From: Blastocatellia bacterium
GTDB taxonomy: Bacteria; Acidobacteriota; Blastocatellia; HR10
Length of the DNA stretch: 64,000 bases
Direction: 5' to 3'
Assembly: GCA_025055075.1 (NCBI GenBank)
Contig: JANWYV010000053.1
Coordinates: 1 to 64,000, forward strand
This document shows, one piece after another, positions 70-49,837 of this stretch. The position numbers and the translations under genes are program-made. The notes beneath the pieces were generated by a model. The model did no database searches, was not told the DNA's origin, and saw only the letters and a program-made list of their open reading frames with translations. How positions within the stretch are numbered: position 1 is the stretch's first letter; the number at the start of each line of letters is the position of its first letter.

Positions 70-522
70 TCATCGGCTCACCGATGCCACTTCGGCCTTC
101 GCCTTCTGGCGCACTCTCTTGGCCGCCCTGCCCGGCAACAATCTCTCCTTTTGTATCCCGACGAGGCATTTGCCACGGATGCGAAGGCGCAGGCGCTTCT
201 TCAGCTCCCTTTCATCCCTTGCCGAAAGGCCTCTTGGAATTGAGGCGACGGCGTCAAAGAGAGCGCGCGTGAACGGCTCATCGGCGTCGGGCAGCGAGTA
301 ATAGACCCATCGGCCCTCCCTCCGCTCGGTGAGCAGTCCCGCCTGCTTCAATACCCTCAAATGCTTGGAGACGTTGTACTGGGGGATCTCCAGGGAATCG
401 ACCAATTCGCAGACGCAGAGACCGCTCTTGGCAATCATCAGTAGGTGCATGATACGGAGCCGCGTCTCATCGCCCAGAGCTTTAAGGATTTCGGCGTACT
501 CCTTCATCGCTCGGATGTTCAT
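70..522 (-). CDS. ArsR/SmtB-family HTH transcriptional regulator
   Basis: A 150-residue winged helix-turn-helix repressor. The pattern LKALGDETRLRIMHLL near the N-terminus, followed by CVCEL and a recognition helix with YNVSKHLRVLKQAGLL, is typical of ArsR-type metal or metalloid sensors; the CVC pair in the helix before the recognition helix is where arsenite-type sensors bind metal. YYSLPDAD forms the wing. The last 50 residues are basic and unlike the family. The predicted transcript start (about 527) lies 5 bases before this ATG, so translation may be leaderless; an alternative ATG at 507 (MKEYAEIL) also lacks a good SD. A palindrome over the -10 box suggests autoregulation. The target metal is not known. 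Confidence 0.85.
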   Translation of the reverse strand: MNIRAMKEYAEILKALGDETRLRIMHLLMIAKSGLCVCELVDSLEIPQYNVSKHLRVLKQAGLLTERREGRWVYYSLPDADEPFTRALFDAVASIPRGLSARDERELKKRLRLRIRGKCLVGIQKERLLPGRAAKRVRQKAKAEVASVSR

Positions 523-562: not shown

Positions 563-927
563 TGACTTCAACGGCTCGTTCGGCGAGGTCGGCTCGGAGC
601 ATCGGGACCCTCGCGCGCGCATCCCAGAATCCCGACTTGTTTTGAATGATGCGCTTCGGATCAGCGGGAGTGGCACGGTCATCCTTTGGGGCCGCGGTCC
701 GGTTCAGTTGAACCTCGAAGAAGAGGCATCGCTTCTCATGACGTTGGATGGCGCGGTTCGCCGATGTGTAGTGGTCAATGAGCGATCTCAAATCTCGCGG
801 TACGCCATGATGTCGGCATCGAGCGCGCGCCGCGCGACCTCGTATCGTTCGTATACGAGCAGTTTCTCGCGCTGTCCCATTAGTGTTGCGCACGGGCGCA
901 TGAGGATATCGCATCCTGGGATGTGCG
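563..927. other. Intergenic region without a supportable gene
   Basis: About 365 bases between the arsR promoter and the promoter of the phosphatase gene. Open frames exist on both strands, but none has a recognisable product or good start. A short minus-strand stretch (about 790-900) with residues like QREKLLVYERYEVARRALD has protein-like composition and could be a gene remnant. An inverted repeat lies at 839-859. Confidence 0.4.
839..859. repeat. Inverted repeat CTCGTAT-N7-ATACGAG
   Basis: Two perfect 7-base arms separated by 7 bases, in noncoding DNA between divergent genes. It could be a protein-binding site or a small hairpin; no T-run follows it. Confidence 0.4.
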
Positions 928-956
928 TTGGCGGTCGTCGTGGGGTTGGATATAAT
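928..956 (+). promoter_or_regulatory. Sigma70-type promoter of the phosphatase-glycosyltransferase pair
   Basis: TTGGCG (928-933), 17 bases, then a perfect TATAAT (951-956). Predicted start of transcription is near 963, leaving a leader of about 9 bases before the ATG at 972 and no room for an SD. Confidence 0.65.
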
Positions 957-971
957 CGAGTCTTCAAAGCC

Positions 972-1322
972 ATGAAGCGGCGGGTGCTCTTCATCTGCAC
1001 GGCGAATCAACATCGCTCGCCGACAGCCGAAGCGCTATTGGCGCGGAGTCAACGATATGAAGCGCGTTCGGCGGGAGTGTCGCCGCTGGCCACGCGTCCG
1101 GTGACGCGCGATCTCGTGGAGTGGGCCGATCTCATCTTCGTGATGGATGAGCGATATGATCGTCATCGGACGCAACTGCTCGAACTCTTCCCCGATGTCG
1201 AGGGGCTCGCCGAGAAAATCATCGTGCTGAACATTCCGGACATTTACGAGCGGGATTCGCCGGAGCTGATCGCCCTTCTGCGGCAAAGACTGCAGCACTG
1301 GTTGCCGGATTTAGATGTCTGA
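972..1322 (+). CDS. Low-molecular-weight protein tyrosine phosphatase-like protein
   Basis: A 116-residue protein that starts MKRRVLFICTANQHRSPTAE. The CX5R(S) phosphate-binding loop (CTANQHRS) sits at the N-terminus as in low-molecular-weight tyrosine phosphatases, and WADLIFVMDERYDRH and IPDIYERDSPELI match the short bacterial subfamily of about 110 residues. It should be a cytoplasmic phosphatase; its substrate is unknown. The start at 972 was chosen because the P-loop must be N-terminal and a TATAAT box lies just upstream; the frame is open further upstream, but those residues look non-coding. Its last 8 bases overlap the next gene (ATGTCTGA). Confidence 0.85.
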   Translation: MKRRVLFICTANQHRSPTAEALLARSQRYEARSAGVSPLATRPVTRDLVEWADLIFVMDERYDRHRTQLLELFPDVEGLAEKIIVLNIPDIYERDSPELIALLRQRLQHWLPDLDV

Positions 1323-5221: not shown

Positions 5222-6781
5222 TCAGCGCGTGAGCGTCCAACTCACGCGGGAAGAGAGAAGCCCTAGTGGATCTCGACGGACGAAGGGGGTCCGATCGGTG
5301 ACAACCACCGTGATCGTATGCTGACCCGGAGAGAGGGTTGCCGTGGGAAGGGAGAAGCTCGCTTCGTGGTGGTCGAGCGGGAGGCCATCCATGAACCATT
5401 CGATATGCAGCGTCCCTGGCGAAGGTTCCGGGGGAACCACGCGAAAGAGCAGCGTATCGGCCATGGTCTCGTGAATTGAAAGCAAAGAGCCGGGCGGAGG
5501 GAGGGCGGCTTCGATCGGACGAATGTAGAAGTAGAGACGTCGGACATGCTGTTCCATGCAAATGGGGCAGAACGGTTGACCAAGCGTCCGCATCTTGCAG
5601 GTCGGGGATGGGCGAAAGACTCCGCGCGAGGCACCCAGTCCTCCTTCAAAGAGTCCAACGTTCATGCTCGATTCGGACGAGGATCGCGCATCCTCGATCC
5701 AGTAATCCCATTTCCCGACTCGCCGAAGGCCCTCACGGGTGTGTTCAAGCGTGACGTTCACTTTCGTCGGTTCGCGCAAAGGCGGAGCCGAAGGACCGTC
5801 GTTCTCATCAGCGAGGAAGGCGAAGCTATGTCCCAGTTCGTGCACTAGCAGCTCCGGTCCCAGTGCGTGCGTCGTGACGACCGAGATGTTCTTCAAGGGC
5901 CCAGAGGAGCCACCGAAATCTCGTTCGTTCACGAGGACGACAATGAGATCGGCTTCGGGCACCAAAGCGGCCGCGCGATAGATCTTGTACTCGCTTTCTA
6001 CGGGAGCATAAACGGCACTCGGCACGCCCCCGAAGTCGAACGTCATATCCAGGGCTGTATCGCGATAGAGTCCGAGGCTCGGCCGATCGATGCCGGAGTC
6101 TCGGGAGATCACATTGACCTTGTGAATGTTGATGGCGTGGCGATAGGCCGCATACGGTTGAGTCTCGAGCAGATGGGCAGCGAATGCGCGAACGTCTCGG
6201 TCGAACTTCTCCATCTCCGTCGCTTGGTAGCCATCGCCCAAAAACACGATGTCCAGACGATTGCTCGAGGGCCCCGTGCGAATCACCGTCTGCGCCGTAT
6301 AATTCGGTCGCGCGCTGGTCGCTTCAAGTGCTTCTGTAGAAACCTCCAGAGGGAGAACGATCGTCGGCAAGTCGTCTCCCGAGATGCGAAGTCGAGTAGC
6401 CTTTTCCGCATACGGCACCCGGAGTGGGAAGATCGTCTCCGGCAGGAGAAGCGTCTGCCCGTCAATATTTCCTTCTTCGCTGAGGCGATCCACATGGATG
6501 GGGCGCGGATCGTCAAATTCGCTGACGAAAAGGACTTGTCCGTCTTCAGCTTCCACAGTGAACCGGAAAGTTCCCGGCAAGTGAGATGGGGACGCCTGCG
6601 GGAGAGCCGATGCGGGGTGAATCTGGCTCTCGATGAGTTGAAATCGTGTGCCGTCATAATGCACCCAAAGGGTTTGCATCATTGGCCTGGGCGATGGCGG
6701 ATGGGGATTCGCGGTTTCCGGAATGGGCCACAAGATGCACTTGAGACCGATGGCGAGCATCGCGATCTTTTTCACTGCCAT
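5222..6781 (-). CDS. Secreted M64-family (IgA peptidase-like) zinc metallopeptidase
   Basis: A 519-residue exported peptidase. Basic and hydrophobic residues 1-17 suggest a signal sequence (KKIAMLAIGLKCILWPI). Residues about 30-150 form the N-terminal beta domain; SNRLDIVFLGDGYQ opens the catalytic domain, and HELGHSFAFLADE (first His at residue 314) is the HEXXH zinc motif with the LADE extension characteristic of M64. Cys residues follow in CKMRTLGQPFCPICME. The C-terminal 100 residues look like an Ig-like beta domain. The ATG has GGAGG 7 bases upstream, and a consensus sigma54 promoter lies just before that. It is read towards 4882, and the sigma54 activator gene lies upstream on the same strand. 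The substrate is unknown. Confidence 0.85.
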   Translation of the reverse strand: MAVKKIAMLAIGLKCILWPIPETANPHPPSPRPMMQTLWVHYDGTRFQLIESQIHPASALPQASPSHLPGTFRFTVEAEDGQVLFVSEFDDPRPIHVDRLSEEGNIDGQTLLLPETIFPLRVPYAEKATRLRISGDDLPTIVLPLEVSTEALEATSARPNYTAQTVIRTGPSSNRLDIVFLGDGYQATEMEKFDRDVRAFAAHLLETQPYAAYRHAINIHKVNVISRDSGIDRPSLGLYRDTALDMTFDFGGVPSAVYAPVESEYKIYRAAALVPEADLIVVLVNERDFGGSSGPLKNISVVTTHALGPELLVHELGHSFAFLADENDGPSAPPLREPTKVNVTLEHTREGLRRVGKWDYWIEDARSSSESSMNVGLFEGGLGASRGVFRPSPTCKMRTLGQPFCPICMEQHVRRLYFYIRPIEAALPPPGSLLSIHETMADTLLFRVVPPEPSPGTLHIEWFMDGLPLDHHEASFSLPTATLSPGQHTITVVVTDRTPFVRRDPLGLLSSRVSWTLTR

Positions 6782-6807: not shown

Positions 6808-6823
6808 AGCAATCGACGTGCCA
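6808..6823 (-). promoter_or_regulatory. Sigma54 (-24/-12) promoter of the M64 peptidase gene
   Basis: On the minus strand TGGCACG (6823-6817), 4 bases, TTGCT (6812-6808), with exactly 10 bases between the invariant GG and GC. This matches the sigma54 consensus at every conserved position. The start of transcription would be near 6797, leaving a leader of about 16 bases containing the SD. The neighbouring gene encodes a sigma54 activator. Confidence 0.8.
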
Positions 6824-6974
6824 AGACGCTTCGTCTGAAGCGACGAGCGCTTTATTTCATCGCAGCGGGATCAACTCTTCCCTCACCAAAGGATTCCTCA
6901 AAAGGTGGGCCTGAACACAAGGGCGGGCTTCATGATGGACGCTCGATCCCAAACGTTTCACGCCTCCTCGGATG

Positions 6975-6990
6975 GTTTCATGGATGAAAC
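6975..6990. promoter_or_regulatory. Candidate enhancer (upstream activating) site for the sigma54 activator
   Basis: GTTTCATGGATGAAAC, two perfect 7-base arms around GG. It lies about 150 bases upstream of the sigma54 promoter and about 60 bases past the end of the activator gene, the usual distance for an enhancer bound by an NtrC-type dimer. A half-site-like GTTTCA occurs at 6955-6960. The rest of 6824-7051 shows no gene. Binding is inferred. Confidence 0.55.
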
Positions 6991-7051
6991 GCTTCGTTCA
7001 TTGCGGGGCGTCGCGGGGAAGGAGATGACCCATTGTGCACGAAGTCGTCCA

Positions 7052-8437
7052 TTACGGGGAAGTGTCCTCGGGCGAATTCGACGAAGAGACGAATCGTTTC
7101 GCGAGCCCGTATTTCTTCATCTTCCGCCAAAGAGTGACGCGGCTGATACCGAGATCGCGAGCCGTGCGTTCGAGGTGGCCTTCGTTGCGCTCGATCGCCT
7201 GAAGGATGAGATCGCGCTCGACCTGATGGAGGATGGTCTCGGCTTCTCGCTCTTCTGAGGGCGCGGTGGAGATCCGCACATGGGCAGGGAGATCAGCGAT
7301 GGTAATCCACTGACCGGTGGTGAGGGCGACGGCTTGTTCGATGATATGACGCAGTTCGCGTACATTGCCAGGGAAGGCGTAGTGCATCAGTGCGGACATG
7401 GCCGCTTCGCTGAAGCCCAGGATGACCTTTTGCTCTCGTTGGCAGAATTGGCGGAGGAAGTGATGCGCCAGTAAGGGGATGTCCTCGCGTCGGGCGCGCA
7501 GCGGTGGGAGGTGGATGGTGACGACGTTAAGCCGGTAGTAGAGGTCTTCGCGGAATTCGCCGCGCCGGAGGGCATCGTGTAAGTCTCGATTGGTCGCCGC
7601 GATGATCCGCACGTCCACGGGGATCTCGCGATTCTCCCCGAGACGGCGGATGGTCTTGTTTTCGAGCACGCGCAGGAGCTTGGCTTGGATCGAGAGCGGG
7701 ACCGAGCCAATCTCATCGAGGAAGAACGTCCCTCCGGAAGCCTCTTCGATCAAGCCCCTCCGATTCGCAACGGCTCCGGTGAACGCGCCTTTGACATGTC
7801 CGAAGAGTTCGCTCTCCAAGAGTTGTTCCGGCAGGGCTGCGCAGTTGACCGAGATGAATGGGCGCGAGGCACGTCGGCTCAAGAGGTGGATCGCGCGAGC
7901 GATCACGTCCTTGCCCGTTCCGGTCTCACCGGTGAGCAAAACGGTGGCGTCGCTTGGAGCGACGCGCCGCACTTTCTCCAGAACCTGAAGGAACGGCGAA
8001 CTTTGACCGACGAGATTCTCGATCCCGAAGTGGTGGAGCAACTCTTCTCGCAGCCATCGGTTCTCGCGTTGCAAGCGCTTTCGCTCCAGGATGTGCGCGA
8101 CGCGCAGGCGGAGCTCATCTATGGGGAATGGCTTGGTGATATAATCGCAAGCGCCGAGCTTCATGGCTTGCACGGCCGTCTCAATCGTCCCGTAGGCGGT
8201 CATCATAAGGACTTCCGTGTCCGGGGAGATCTCCTTGATGGCGCGCAGCAGGTCCATGCCCGAGAGGGGGGTCATCATGAGGTCGGTGATGACCAGATCG
8301 AAGACCTCCTCGCGCGCTCGTTCTAAAGCTTCCGAGACGTTAGCGGCCGTTTGGATCTCGTACTCCTCATCAGCAAGCGCCTGCTGGACGAACGTTCGCA
8401 CAGTCGCTTCGTCGTCCACAATCAGGATCTTGAACAT
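7052..8437 (-). CDS. NtrC-family sigma54-dependent response regulator
   Basis: A 461-residue activator with three domains: receiver (residues about 1-115; ILIVDDE, phosphoacceptor Asp in LVITDLMM, conserved Lys in ITKPF), AAA+ domain (about 140-370; Walker A GETGTGKD, sigma54-contacting GAFTGA, Walker B GGTFFLDEIG), and a Fis-type HTH at the C-terminus (LERTARDLGISRVTLWRKM). It should bind an enhancer and activate sigma54 polymerase when phosphorylated. The ATG at 8437 (MFKILIV) was preferred to a GTG at 8449 because that GTG overlaps the AAGGAG. No histidine kinase gene lies in the window. The sigma54 promoter and palindrome just downstream make the M64 peptidase its likely target. Confidence 0.93.
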   Translation of the reverse strand: MFKILIVDDEATVRTFVQQALADEEYEIQTAANVSEALERAREEVFDLVITDLMMTPLSGMDLLRAIKEISPDTEVLMMTAYGTIETAVQAMKLGACDYITKPFPIDELRLRVAHILERKRLQRENRWLREELLHHFGIENLVGQSSPFLQVLEKVRRVAPSDATVLLTGETGTGKDVIARAIHLLSRRASRPFISVNCAALPEQLLESELFGHVKGAFTGAVANRRGLIEEASGGTFFLDEIGSVPLSIQAKLLRVLENKTIRRLGENREIPVDVRIIAATNRDLHDALRRGEFREDLYYRLNVVTIHLPPLRARREDIPLLAHHFLRQFCQREQKVILGFSEAAMSALMHYAFPGNVRELRHIIEQAVALTTGQWITIADLPAHVRISTAPSEEREAETILHQVERDLILQAIERNEGHLERTARDLGISRVTLWRKMKKYGLAKRFVSSSNSPEDTSP

Positions 8438-8487
8438 CGCTCTTGCCACTCCTTGAGGCGCCGCGCATGACGCCCACGAAGGGTGGA

Positions 8488-44494: not shown

Positions 44495-45706
44495 ATGGCC
44501 GAGTACGTGTTTCGCGTGGGCACTCCTTCGGGAGAGATCGTCCTTCGCAAGGTGGAAGCCTTGAGCCCGGAGGAGGCTCGACAGCGCCTCGAGCGCGAGG
44601 GATATCGCGTCTTCACCCTCGCGCAGCGCAGTAGGCCGACCTGGAGCTGGCGCTTCTCGTTCCGACGCATCAAGCTGGAGGATTTCCTGCACTTCAATCA
44701 GCAACTGGCAGCGCTCATCCGCGCTGGATTGCCGATTCTACACGCCATCAGCATGCTGGCCCGGCGGCAGAGCCATCCCGCTTTGCAAAGCGTGCTGCGC
44801 GACATCGAAGATCGCATTCGCGAAGGCACGCCGCTGTCGCAAGCTTTCGCATCGCGGAGCGACGTCTTCCCTCGCTTATATATCGCTGCGATCCTAGCCG
44901 GCGAACGATCGGGGAATCTCGATGAAATGCTCTCGCGCTACATCGCCTATACGAAGCAGATGGTCGCCCTCAAGCGACGCGTGCGCGCAGCGACGGCCTA
45001 TCCTATCTTCTTGCTCATCGCGTTGATTCTCTTGGTCGCCGTGATGACCGGATTTGTGATCCCGCGCTTCTCGCTCATCTATGAAGATTTCGGCGGCGAG
45101 TTGCCCACGATCACGCGGATCGTCTTGGCCGTCGGCTACGGCGTGCGGGAGAACCTCCTCTGGGGCGTTCCGGCACTTGTCGCTCTGTTCATTGGTTTGG
45201 TGCTTTGGCGGAAGACCGAACGTGGACGCGCGACGCTCGATGCCTTGGTCCTGAGGCTACCCATTGTCGGGCCGATTGTGCGCGACCTGGCGGTGGCGCA
45301 ACTGGCGCGCAGCCTGGCGACGCTCCTGCAAGGGGGGATCACACTCGTTGAATCATTCCGCGTGGCGAGCGAGACGCTCACTAATCGCGTGCTCGCCCGT
45401 TCTTCGGGCATCGTCCTCCGACGCATCCAGGAGGGGCAGGCTTTCGCCGATAGCCTGGAGCAAGCCGGATGGCTTCCGCCGCTGGCGATTGACATCGTGC
45501 GCGTCGGCGAGCGCGCCGGTAGCCTCAAGGAGATGCTCGATGAGCTGGCCAATTTTTACGATGCCGAGCTGGAGGTGCGCTTCAATCAGGTGACGACGCT
45601 CATTCAACCCATTATGCTCGTGCTCATGGCGGGATTGGTGACTTTCGTACTGCTGGCCATGTATCTGCCGCTGTTCACCTTCATCTCGACATTAGGCGCG
45701 AGGTGA
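44495..45706 (+). CDS. gspF: Type II secretion/type IV pilus inner-membrane platform protein (GspF/PilC)
   Basis: A 403-residue polytopic protein with two homologous GspF domains (about 70-190 and 275-395): FNQQLAALIRAGLPILHAISML in the first and LAVAQLARSLATLLQGGITLVESFRV in the second, each followed by a hydrophobic stretch (PIFLLIALILLVAVMTGFVIPRF; TLIQPIMLVLMAGLVTFVLLAMYLPLF). It anchors the GspE ATPase at the membrane. GGAGGTGA lies just upstream of the ATG. Confidence 0.93.
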   Translation: MAEYVFRVGTPSGEIVLRKVEALSPEEARQRLEREGYRVFTLAQRSRPTWSWRFSFRRIKLEDFLHFNQQLAALIRAGLPILHAISMLARRQSHPALQSVLRDIEDRIREGTPLSQAFASRSDVFPRLYIAAILAGERSGNLDEMLSRYIAYTKQMVALKRRVRAATAYPIFLLIALILLVAVMTGFVIPRFSLIYEDFGGELPTITRIVLAVGYGVRENLLWGVPALVALFIGLVLWRKTERGRATLDALVLRLPIVGPIVRDLAVAQLARSLATLLQGGITLVESFRVASETLTNRVLARSSGIVLRRIQEGQAFADSLEQAGWLPPLAIDIVRVGERAGSLKEMLDELANFYDAELEVRFNQVTTLIQPIMLVLMAGLVTFVLLAMYLPLFTFISTLGAR

Positions 45707-45723
45707 AGGGGGAGGGAATCGCC

Positions 45724-47385
<1,662 letters not shown>

Positions 47386-47467
47386 GCGGTCGAAGATGGG
47401 CCGAAGCGCGAAGAGGGATCTTCGTGCTGGATCGGCGCAAGAAGTTTCAGTGCGGAGGGAAAACGTT

Positions 47468-49837
47468 ATGAAGCGGCGATCGCTGTTAGTGAAACGCGTG
47501 GGGACGTTCGCCCTGCTCCTGGCGACCCTTTGGAGCACGCCCGCTCCCGCATGGGCGGGGTCCAAGGGGAAGAAGTACTTCCAAGAGGGGCAAAAATTGG
47601 AAGCGGCGGGGAAGTTCGATCAGGCGGCGGAACAGTACCTGCTGGCGCTCTCGGAAGCGAACCGGCCCGAGTATCACATCGCCTATCGCCGCGCGGCGCT
47701 TCAGGCGTCGCTCATCTTGACGCGGCGCGGTCGCGAATTGATGGAGGCCGGGCAATATGAGGACGCCTATCACGCCTTCCGCCGCGCCTACCAGTTCGAT
47801 CAAACCAACGAATTGGCGCGCGAGCTGGCGCGCCGTGCGTTGGAACTGGCGCAGAAGGAGGGGAAGGACGTCTCCGTGCCCACGAATTCGACGTTCGGAT
47901 CGCCTGGACCTCCCGAGCTACAGGCCGGGCGCGCACGACCCGAGCTTCCGCCCGAGCCGCCGCAGGAAGAAGCGCGACAGGACGTCATCTTTCGAGACGA
48001 TTTGAGGGCGATCATCGCACAGCTTGGCCGCCAGCTCGGCTTGAACGTGCTCTTCGATCAAAGCGTGCCCGAGGGACGACGCGTCTCGATCGAGTTGCGA
48101 AACGTCACCAAAGCGCAAGCGCTGGATGCCATCCTCCTCAGCCATGGGCTCTTCTTCCAGCCCATCAGTGACAATACGATCATCGTGGCCCTCGATCAAC
48201 CGGCTAATCGCAATCGCTTGCAGCAGACGAGCGTGCAAACCTTTTATCTGAGGCATGCCGATCCCGTACAGGTGCAGCAACAGTTGGCGCCCATGGCCGG
48301 TCAATTGCGCGCGCAGATCGTGCTCAATCAAGATTTGCGAGCCTTGATCGTACGCGCGACGCCGGAGAACCTCAAGCTCTTCCAAGAGATCATCGAGAGC
48401 ATCGACAAGGAGAAGCCCGAGGTGATGATTGACATCAGCATCTACGAGGTCGCGCGCAACGATCTCATCGAGATCGGGAACCAGTTGCTCTACGATGGTT
48501 TCTTCACCACCGCGCCACAGGGACCGATTCGTCCGGGCACGTTGAACCTCCTCGGGGTGACGATGGGGCAGATCATCACCGAGCAGCGGTTGGCGCTCGC
48601 CATCCCCACGAGCATCATCCGCTTCCTGCAAACGCGCGGTCGGAGCAACTTGATTGATAGTATTCAAGTGCATGCTCTGGATGGGCAGCAGGTGACGGCG
48701 AACATTGGTCGCCAGATTCCCATTCAAACGGCTTCGATCCCAACCTCGTTCGTGAATGTCGCCCCGACGCAGCCGGGGCAACAACCGGGTGGGCAACTGC
48801 CGGGATTTCCTGGCAACATCTTCGGCTTCGGCTATCCGCAAATCGAATATCGGCCCGTCGGGCTGAACGTGACGATCACGCCCACGGTCTATAGCGACGA
48901 ATATGTGAAGCTGGAGATGGAGGTGGAAACGTCGGGGTACAATGAAGGGCCGACGAGCCTGACGCCCGTCTTCACGACGCGGAAGTTGAAGAGCGTGGCG
49001 ACTGTCCGGACCGGCCAAGCGGCGATGATGGCCGCTGTCGCGCAGAAACGCGATGAGCAGGGGCGCACGACCATCCCCTTCCTCGGCTTCTTGCCCGTGA
49101 TCGGGCGATTCTTCAGCATTCCCAAGCAAACAGGCAACACGACGGACATCCTCATCACGGTGACGCCCCATATCCTGCGGGCGGCTTCGATCGAGGAGCG
49201 AGATCGGCTGGCACGGTTGGCTGGGACGCTGCAGAGTCAAGGCGCGAGCTTGACGATCGAGCGCTTCCTGGAGCAAACGCGGATGTCGCAGATGGGCGCG
49301 TCCCCTCATGGCGTCGCCCGAGCCGTGAGTCCGGAGGAGAAAAAAGCACCCGAATCCACGGCGACGCCGCCATCGCGGACCGAAGCTCCCAGTGTCACTC
49401 CGGCTCCTGGGGCGTTGGAAGGGGAACCAATCCAGCTCTCGCTGCAGATGAGCACGGCCACGCCGCGAGCGGGCGAGTGGGTGCAAATCGCGCTCTTCAT
49501 CAATGGCAGAGAGGAGATTCGCGAAGCGACGGTAGCGCTCACCTACAATCCGCAGATGCTGCGCTTGGTCAATGTGGCCGATGGAGGGGCGCTCACAAGT
49601 AGCGAGGCTCCAGCCGAAGTCCGCACGCAGCACGATCCCAGTGGAAAGATCATACTCACCGTGCGAGCGACCGGTTCGGCACGCCCCGCACGAGGACGTC
49701 TGGCCGTTCTCCTCTTCGACGTCTTGCAGGGTGGCAGCTCGCAGCTTGAGGTGGACGCCACCGCGACGCGATTCGTCACAGCCGACGGTCGAACCGTGGG
49801 AGGCAAGGCCGTGCCGCTGACGGTCGCCGTCAGATGA
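47468..49837 (+). CDS. gspD: Outer-membrane secretin with C-terminal cohesin-like domain (GspD/PilQ)
   Basis: A 789-residue secretin. Signal peptide at about 1-31 (VGTFALLLATLWSTPAPAWA); TPR-like helices at 32-125 (YFQEGQKLEAAGKFDQAAEQY); a short N-domain at 175-235 (FRDDLRAIIAQLGRQLGLNVLF); secretin N domain (YLRHADPVQVQQQL); the secretin pore at about 345-605 (VTITPTVYSDEYVKLEMEVE, TTIPFLGFLPVIGRFF, ILITVTPHIL). The last 130 residues (IQLSLQMSTATPRAGEWVQIALFI ... VALTYNPQMLRLVNV) are a cohesin-like domain. The ATG at 47468 follows GGAGGG. Confidence 0.93.
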   Translation: MKRRSLLVKRVGTFALLLATLWSTPAPAWAGSKGKKYFQEGQKLEAAGKFDQAAEQYLLALSEANRPEYHIAYRRAALQASLILTRRGRELMEAGQYEDAYHAFRRAYQFDQTNELARELARRALELAQKEGKDVSVPTNSTFGSPGPPELQAGRARPELPPEPPQEEARQDVIFRDDLRAIIAQLGRQLGLNVLFDQSVPEGRRVSIELRNVTKAQALDAILLSHGLFFQPISDNTIIVALDQPANRNRLQQTSVQTFYLRHADPVQVQQQLAPMAGQLRAQIVLNQDLRALIVRATPENLKLFQEIIESIDKEKPEVMIDISIYEVARNDLIEIGNQLLYDGFFTTAPQGPIRPGTLNLLGVTMGQIITEQRLALAIPTSIIRFLQTRGRSNLIDSIQVHALDGQQVTANIGRQIPIQTASIPTSFVNVAPTQPGQQPGGQLPGFPGNIFGFGYPQIEYRPVGLNVTITPTVYSDEYVKLEMEVETSGYNEGPTSLTPVFTTRKLKSVATVRTGQAAMMAAVAQKRDEQGRTTIPFLGFLPVIGRFFSIPKQTGNTTDILITVTPHILRAASIEERDRLARLAGTLQSQGASLTIERFLEQTRMSQMGASPHGVARAVSPEEKKAPESTATPPSRTEAPSVTPAPGALEGEPIQLSLQMSTATPRAGEWVQIALFINGREEIREATVALTYNPQMLRLVNVADGGALTSSEAPAEVRTQHDPSGKIILTVRATGSARPARGRLAVLLFDVLQGGSSQLEVDATATRFVTADGRTVGGKAVPLTVAVR

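Follow-up and report, generated by a model that had tools for sequence, protein, structure and literature searches.

An inverted repeat upstream of a sigma54-type promoter as the probable core of an enhancer for an M64 metallopeptidase gene in a Blastocatellia bacterium

Activation of the sigma54 polymerase by one AAA+ activator, which is bound at an upstream activating sequence (UAS) and reaches the promoter through DNA looping, is a standard mechanism. The NtrC family (AtoC, ZraR and NtrC) shares with the locus described here the REC-AAA+-HTH domain order, the GAFTGA loop and a dyad located 100–200 bp upstream of a −24/−12 promoter. PrsR, the PEP-CTERM response regulator (TIGR02915), is likewise a sigma54-dependent response regulator; its targets are surface proteins and exopolysaccharide. 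The sigma54-dependent response regulator DVU2114 of Desulfovibrio vulgaris is reported to have bound promoters of Flp pilin and Tad-type assembly genes, and for its orthologue in a genome without pilin genes, a similar motif is located before a different gene (PMC3333781).

The DNA analyzed here, referred to as the window, is a stretch of 64,000 nucleotides from a Blastocatellia bacterium. An earlier note had pointed out one 7-2-7 palindrome, GTTTCATGGATGAAAC, at positions 6975–6990 and had proposed it as the binding site of the adjacent activator; its sequence and coordinates are exact. The palindrome resides in a 270-bp intergenic gap between a response-regulator gene and an M64-peptidase gene, both on the minus strand. 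One sigma54 (−24/−12) promoter, TGGCAC-N5-TTGC (TGGCACGTCGATTGC), is located at 6809–6823 on the minus strand, on the peptidase-gene side of the palindrome. The distance between the two, put at about 150 bases in the note, is 151 bp, and the start codon of the peptidase follows 26 bases after the promoter. As in known UASs, one inverted repeat is thus found at enhancer distance upstream of a −24/−12 promoter. We consider it probable that the palindrome is the core of a UAS (enhancer), which would be read by the neighbouring NtrC-type regulator and would drive the M64 peptidase gene.

With loops of 0–8 bp allowed, the palindrome (7-bp arms) is the longest-armed inverted repeat of the 270-bp gap, in agreement with its description as the most symmetrical short intergenic sequence. 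However, dinucleotide shuffling of the gap reached 7-bp arms with a loop of 0–8 bp in 324 of 2000 cases, and 7-bp arms with a 2-bp loop in 53 of 2000. Symmetry alone is at chance level and was rejected as a sign of significance. The 324 shuffles speak for a functionless chance inverted repeat, the sigma54 promoter being activated from elsewhere or never; this is very improbable, because much of the sequence around the arms differs in the congeners, yet the arms themselves are kept, the motif is associated order-wide with sigma54-like sites, and the exact 12-base core is expected only 0.05 times per genome of the same size. It is hardly credible that the dyad serves as an RNA hairpin (terminator or attenuator) closing the regulator gene at its 3′ end. 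Although its position ~60 bp past the regulator stop codon would suit such a role, the stem is short and A+T-rich, and the dyad is tied order-wide to promoter-like sites at 50–199 bp. No T-run follows the stem, and the terminator reading was rejected on this ground.

Returning to the enhancer reading, we compared the locus with those of its relatives. Two congeners, G001 and G003, keep the gene pair, and both retain the dyad and the −24/−12 promoter; the promoter boxes are CGGCACGCCGATTGC in G001 and TGGCACGCCGATTGC in G003. In minus-strand sense, the element is GTTTCATCCCTGAAAC in these congeners and GTTTCATCCATGAAAC in the window, with 15 of the 16 bases kept. The congener core, GTTTCA-TCCC-TGAAAC, is symmetrical as 6-4-6 only, without the seventh pair. 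The conserved unit is therefore not the 7-2-7 palindrome of the note, but the dyad GTTTCA-N4-TGAAAC plus a third half-site. This half-site (TGAAAC at 6955–6960 on the minus strand, in the context TGAAACG) begins at a distance of 20 bp from the second dyad arm, which is the one nearer to the promoter, and is present together with the dyad and the −24/−12 box in all three congeneric sequences that have the gene pair. On the other side, at −20, there is one weak, degenerate half-site (TGAAC, 6996–7000, minus strand), which is not found in the congeners. Absence of the element from relatives with the gene pair had been named as grounds for giving up the proposal; the element is kept in 2/2 congeners, and two near-copies occur in G005.

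In G005, which belongs to the same family but to genus g2, one CpaF-type ATPase gene is inserted between the regulator and peptidase genes. The peptidase gene is preceded by two 1-mismatch dyads, GTTTCAGCCATGAAAA and GTTTCACGCATGAAGC, and by the box CGGTACGCCACTTGC (GG-N10-GC), and the regulator–CpaF gap contains a further dyad (2 mismatches) and a separate promoter for it. A similar order was observed for truncated orthologues on G008:C56 and G009:C356, where the regulator is followed by a UAS with 2 mismatches, a sigma54-like box and CpaF. These two were considered as standalone small HTH proteins, which was rejected; they are contig-end fragments of regulator orthologues.

To place the dyad in the order, GTTTCA-N4-TGAAAC was searched with at most 1 mismatch in 11 genomes, irrespective of promoters, and 81 sites were obtained. 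The context was examined in nine order genomes, with 69 sites in total; 6 sites each of G007 and of G032, the latter from another family of the class outside the order, were left out. Promoters were scored by a scheme set for the present analysis, in which GG-N10-GC is obligatory and the other positions are weighted by the consensus. A sigma54-like site (score ≥12.4) that is 80–200 bp off and points away from the dyad was found for 45 of the 69 sites: 15/21 in G006, 12/17 in G008, 9/12 in G009, 4/7 in G005, 1/4 in G001, and 1/2 each in G003, G002, G004 and the genome of the window (G000). The other 24 have no sigma54-like site at this score and distance. With a score of 12.8, away-pointing sites numbered 9 at 50–99 bp, 28 at 100–149 bp and 7 at 150–199 bp, with 8 in the other bins to 900 bp; 44 of the 52 fall within 50–199 bp, and towards-pointing sites amount to 6 in all bins to 900 bp.

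We also scanned 162 genomes of the class with one composite pattern, TTTCA-N4-TGAAA followed after 101–161 bp by TGGCA-N6-TTGC. Of the 20 matches, spread over 9 genomes, 17 came from the order (6 genomes out of 10) and 3 from the other 152 genomes; judged by eye, at least one of these three (L117) runs into a reading frame. The reversed composite, used as control, matched once in the 162 genomes. When the search was started from the promoter side, 2 of a sample of 30 strict sigma54-box loci from 11 genomes, picked irrespective of the motif, had a dyad (≤2 mismatches) 60–230 bp upstream, a modest yield that is expected if the dyad is one of many activators' sites. Judged by sequence comparison, the dyad is beyond chance, owing to its conservation and its order-wide association with sigma54-like sites; like a UAS, it is kept with its promoter and is common to several promoters.

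Around 46 promoter-linked dyads, TGAAA half-sites on the promoter-ward strand were counted at offsets that were picked after the sequences had been inspected. The motif was observed 13 times at −20/−21 and 8 times at +20/+21 (0.08 expected for each), 10 times at −41 to −44 (0.15 expected), and 12 times at the remaining offsets within 70 bp (4.5 expected). G008 and G009 are too closely related to be independent; restricted to G006, G007 and G009 (26 sites), the motif was counted 7, 4 and 6 times at −20/−21, +20/+21 and −41 to −44, respectively. Steps of ~20–21 bp correspond to two helix turns, so the half-sites would share one helix face. Of this array, the dyad and, at 6955–6960, the +20 half-site are present in the window, where the −20 TGAAC is degenerate. 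The phased half-sites provide a simple prediction of how the activator oligomer is seated on DNA.

The regulator gene (7052–8449, minus strand) encodes an NtrC-type response regulator. It contains, in order, Response_reg (PF00072, 107.7 bits), Sigma54_activat (PF00158, 244.6 bits) and HTH_8 (PF02954, 54.8 bits) domains, all over the cut-offs. In the alignment, the GAFTGA sigma54-contact loop is present, and the receiver residues in VDDE, TDL and TKP (Asp/Lys) are intact; by domain order and these residues, the protein belongs to the receiver group of NtrC-type regulators. It is under the NCBIfam cut-offs of all the best 25 models listed, with 433.5 of 760 for ZraR and 410.5 of 558.6 for NtrC. 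An identity as AtoC (NF008469) was rejected, since the protein reaches 496.9 of the 714 bits of the curated cut-off; PrsR (TIGR02915) was also rejected, with 442.8 bits compared to a cut-off of 502.6, which was passed in 0 of the 11 genomes searched. We saw no histidine-kinase gene adjoining the regulator gene, and uvrB is divergent.

Matches to the HTH of the regulator at E ≤1e-9 were found in 10 of the 162 class genomes, namely 8 of the 10 order members and two genomes of family f9, G032 and G045. The 8 order genomes include all 6 with the strict composite, plus G001 and G005, which have variant boxes. In G032 and G045, the HTH is 56% identical, yet there is no composite match. The proteins of the order clade share the recognition helix SR[VTA]TLWR[RK]M[KR]K, which is not that of the outgroups. 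A tree was computed for 23 regulators, with short rows for those from truncated contigs; in it, the order proteins with the shared helix form one group (99/98 with G032). RpoN was found in 9 of the 10 order genomes, including G000. Motif, promoter, spacing, conservation, order-wide association, recognition-helix conservation and domain content are all established at the level of sequence.

Some relatives of the regulator are placed differently. On G006:C132, a paralogue is located behind one histidine-kinase gene, which is headed by the 1-mismatch dyad GTTTCTCTCCTGAAAC with TGGCACGTCATTTGC 123 bp on; this arrangement fits a possible autoregulation. No UAS with promoter was found alongside the full-length relatives on G006:C23 and G008:C105. 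On G008:C33 and G009:C215, one unrelated sigma54 activator gene, whose HTH is unusual and unlike that of the window regulator, is followed by an exact dyad (L142, 1205–1220, and L143, 1139–1154, respectively) and by a sigma54-like box 212–213 bp on; on G008:C33, the box precedes an FG-GAP protein gene.

Alternatively, the site might be a genuine sigma54 enhancer whose reader is a paralogue or an unrelated activator of the genome, the neighbouring regulator having its targets elsewhere. At E ≤1e-3, G000 contains 31 matches to the regulator, paralogues with an identical helix motif exist in the sister families, and the dyad is also found alongside the unrelated activator gene mentioned above. 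Moreover, the regulator HTH was not found (E ≤1e-9) in order members G002 and G004, which are 87% and 73% complete and have no strict composite, and both have TTTTCA-N4-TGAAAC (1 mismatch) 83–84 bp from CGGCAT-N5-TTGC (L195 on G002:C24 and L197 on G004:C54). Such sites without the regulator HTH argue against a simple one-to-one link between HTH and motif; another activator may use similar DNA. However, the linkage of regulator, UAS and peptidase promoter is maintained both in the three congeneric sequences and in another genus, HTH and motif co-occur order-wide, and the own genome has no second protein with an HTH close to that of the regulator (next best E 2.1e-5). Taken together, we regard a different reader as unlikely. 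The interpretation of the site as an enhancer, proposed in the note, is well supported by sequence, and its assignment to the adjacent regulator is probable, by indirect evidence.

The note had further expected the palindrome to reveal the whole regulon of the activator by a genome-wide scan. In the 3.02-Mb genome (59 contigs), the window site is the sole exact match to the 16-base pattern; the 7-2-7 pattern found nothing else and is too narrow, and the 6-4-6 pattern was used instead. With ≤2 mismatches, G000 has 25 dyads compared to 29 for the reversed pattern, i.e. there is no excess, and only the window site (1/25) has a sigma54-like site 80–200 bp off. G000 has 13 further strict sigma54 boxes, and no dyad (≤2 mismatches) was found 50–260 bp upstream of any of them. 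The own genome thus holds one promoter-linked site, and the larger regulon is seen in the sister families of the order. In congener G001, on contig C23 (L191, 962–977 and 1044–1059), we observed one 1-mismatch dyad 66 bp from TGGCATGCTTTTTGC, located before a 270-aa frame with a signal-like N-terminus, which is likely a second target there.

To survey the targets, Pfam was run on 30 proteins encoded behind a dyad with promoter in the order genomes. The targets comprise Flp pilin (G008), A24 prepilin peptidase (G008 and G006), TadE (G008) and CpaF (G005), as well as right-handed beta-helix (G006 and G008), two-component propeller (G006 and G009), FG-GAP and lactonase-type propeller proteins. 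FHA, protein kinase, receivers, histidine kinase, HAMP, sugar transferase and AAA_2 were also found. One target has a weak M12-type peptidase match below the cut-off, a few others have sub-cut-off matches only, and 5 of the 30 have no family. Dyads with promoters are present in the Tad clusters of G006 and G008 (flp and cpaA in each) and upstream of CpaE/CpaF in the second Tad cluster of G005; for the Tad genes of G007, they are on the same contig, ~8 kb upstream of CpaE.

CpaE/CpaF are present in G001, G002 and G003, and Flp in G001 and G003; no dyad with sigma54-like site was found at the Tad loci of these three genomes. CpaF was not found in G000 (98.8% complete) or G004 (73% complete) and is present in the other eight order genomes. 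Inspected by eye, the window has PilC-, PilB- and secretin-like frames in a row at 44495–49837, which could belong to a type IV pilus or type II secretion; the species would have such a machine although CpaF was not found. One weak CpaF match is located at 46642–46983. Near the start of the window, we noticed by eye an ArsR-like regulator frame (70–522, minus strand) and, near it, one frame (642–1322, plus strand) whose C-terminal part resembles low-molecular-weight phosphatase.

With the Tad dyads missing or CpaF absent in the genus of the window, the pilus genes would be uncoupled or incomplete, and the peptidase would have been kept by the regulator. The window site is most likely a remnant of a larger regulon; as for direction, we infer contraction here rather than expansion in the sister families. 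The fuller reading is one order-wide sigma54 regulon with a phased TGAAA enhancer, which would serve Tad pili and exported proteins in the sister families and would have shrunk in the genus of the window to the regulator and one exported metallopeptidase, after Tad uncoupling (congeners) or loss of the Tad ATPase (window species); we give about equal weight for and against it.

The predicted target (5222–6781, minus strand) is an M64 metallopeptidase with a hydrophobic N-terminus, which suggests, judged by eye, that the enzyme may be exported. Its match to PF09471 is 123.7 bits, well over the cut-off of 26, and an alignment with four relatives shows no variation at H314, E315, H318, D325, E326, C395, C405 and C408; with these metal-binding residues intact, the protein is a member of the M64 family. 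One M64 enzyme is described with an HExxH-x6-D catalytic site and a Cys-x9-Cys-x2-Cys second zinc site (PMC12402451), and the spacing of the metal residues of the window peptidase corresponds to both. Different from the M64 IgA peptidase as given there, Phe replaces the Gly of HEXXHXXXGXXD; no IgA link is implied. Related peptidase loci were found in records assembled from metagenomes, named 'uncultured Blastocatellia bacterium' and 'Acidobacteriota bacterium'. One distant relative of the M64 peptidase (28% over query residues 146–321) was noticed in the DPANN archaeal metagenome record JAGVWA010000002.1 (L265, 5001–5435).

From these observations, we infer binding, phosphorylation, looping and activation, with the neighbouring regulator rather than a paralogue as the reader of the site. 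The regulator beside the dyad would be phosphorylated by a kinase, bind the dyad together with the phased half-site(s) next to it, all on one helix face, and assemble into an AAA+ oligomer. One DNA loop of ~150 bp would bring the oligomer to the sigma54 polymerase at 6809–6823, where ATP would drive promoter opening for the M64 peptidase gene. By this reading, the motif is that of a regulator clade of the order, whose larger regulon in the sister families would include the Tad/Flp pilus along with secreted proteins and genes for signalling; in the window species, where the Tad ATPase gene is missing, the peptidase would be the sole remaining target.

We found no description of this motif or of a Blastocatellia sigma54 regulon in the mostly open-access literature consulted, including excerpts of PMC12316311 and PMC4641369. 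The motif and the regulator clade are concrete and testable, and concern the control of surface structures in bacteria known mainly from metagenomes. The locus is also a clear candidate for a regulon that has contracted: in the sister families, the enhancer code precedes genes for Tad pili, exported proteins and kinases, and here it precedes one peptidase promoter only. Compared to AtoC, ZraR and NtrC, both the dyad sequence and the target of the window system are different. The nearest working parallel to the proposed case, judged by its published description, is DVU2114 (PMC3333781); different from it, the window system belongs to another phylum and has an M64 peptidase as target. While the general mechanism is already known, the interest of this locus lies in a motif found across the order, in the phasing of its half-sites and in a regulon that has apparently contracted.
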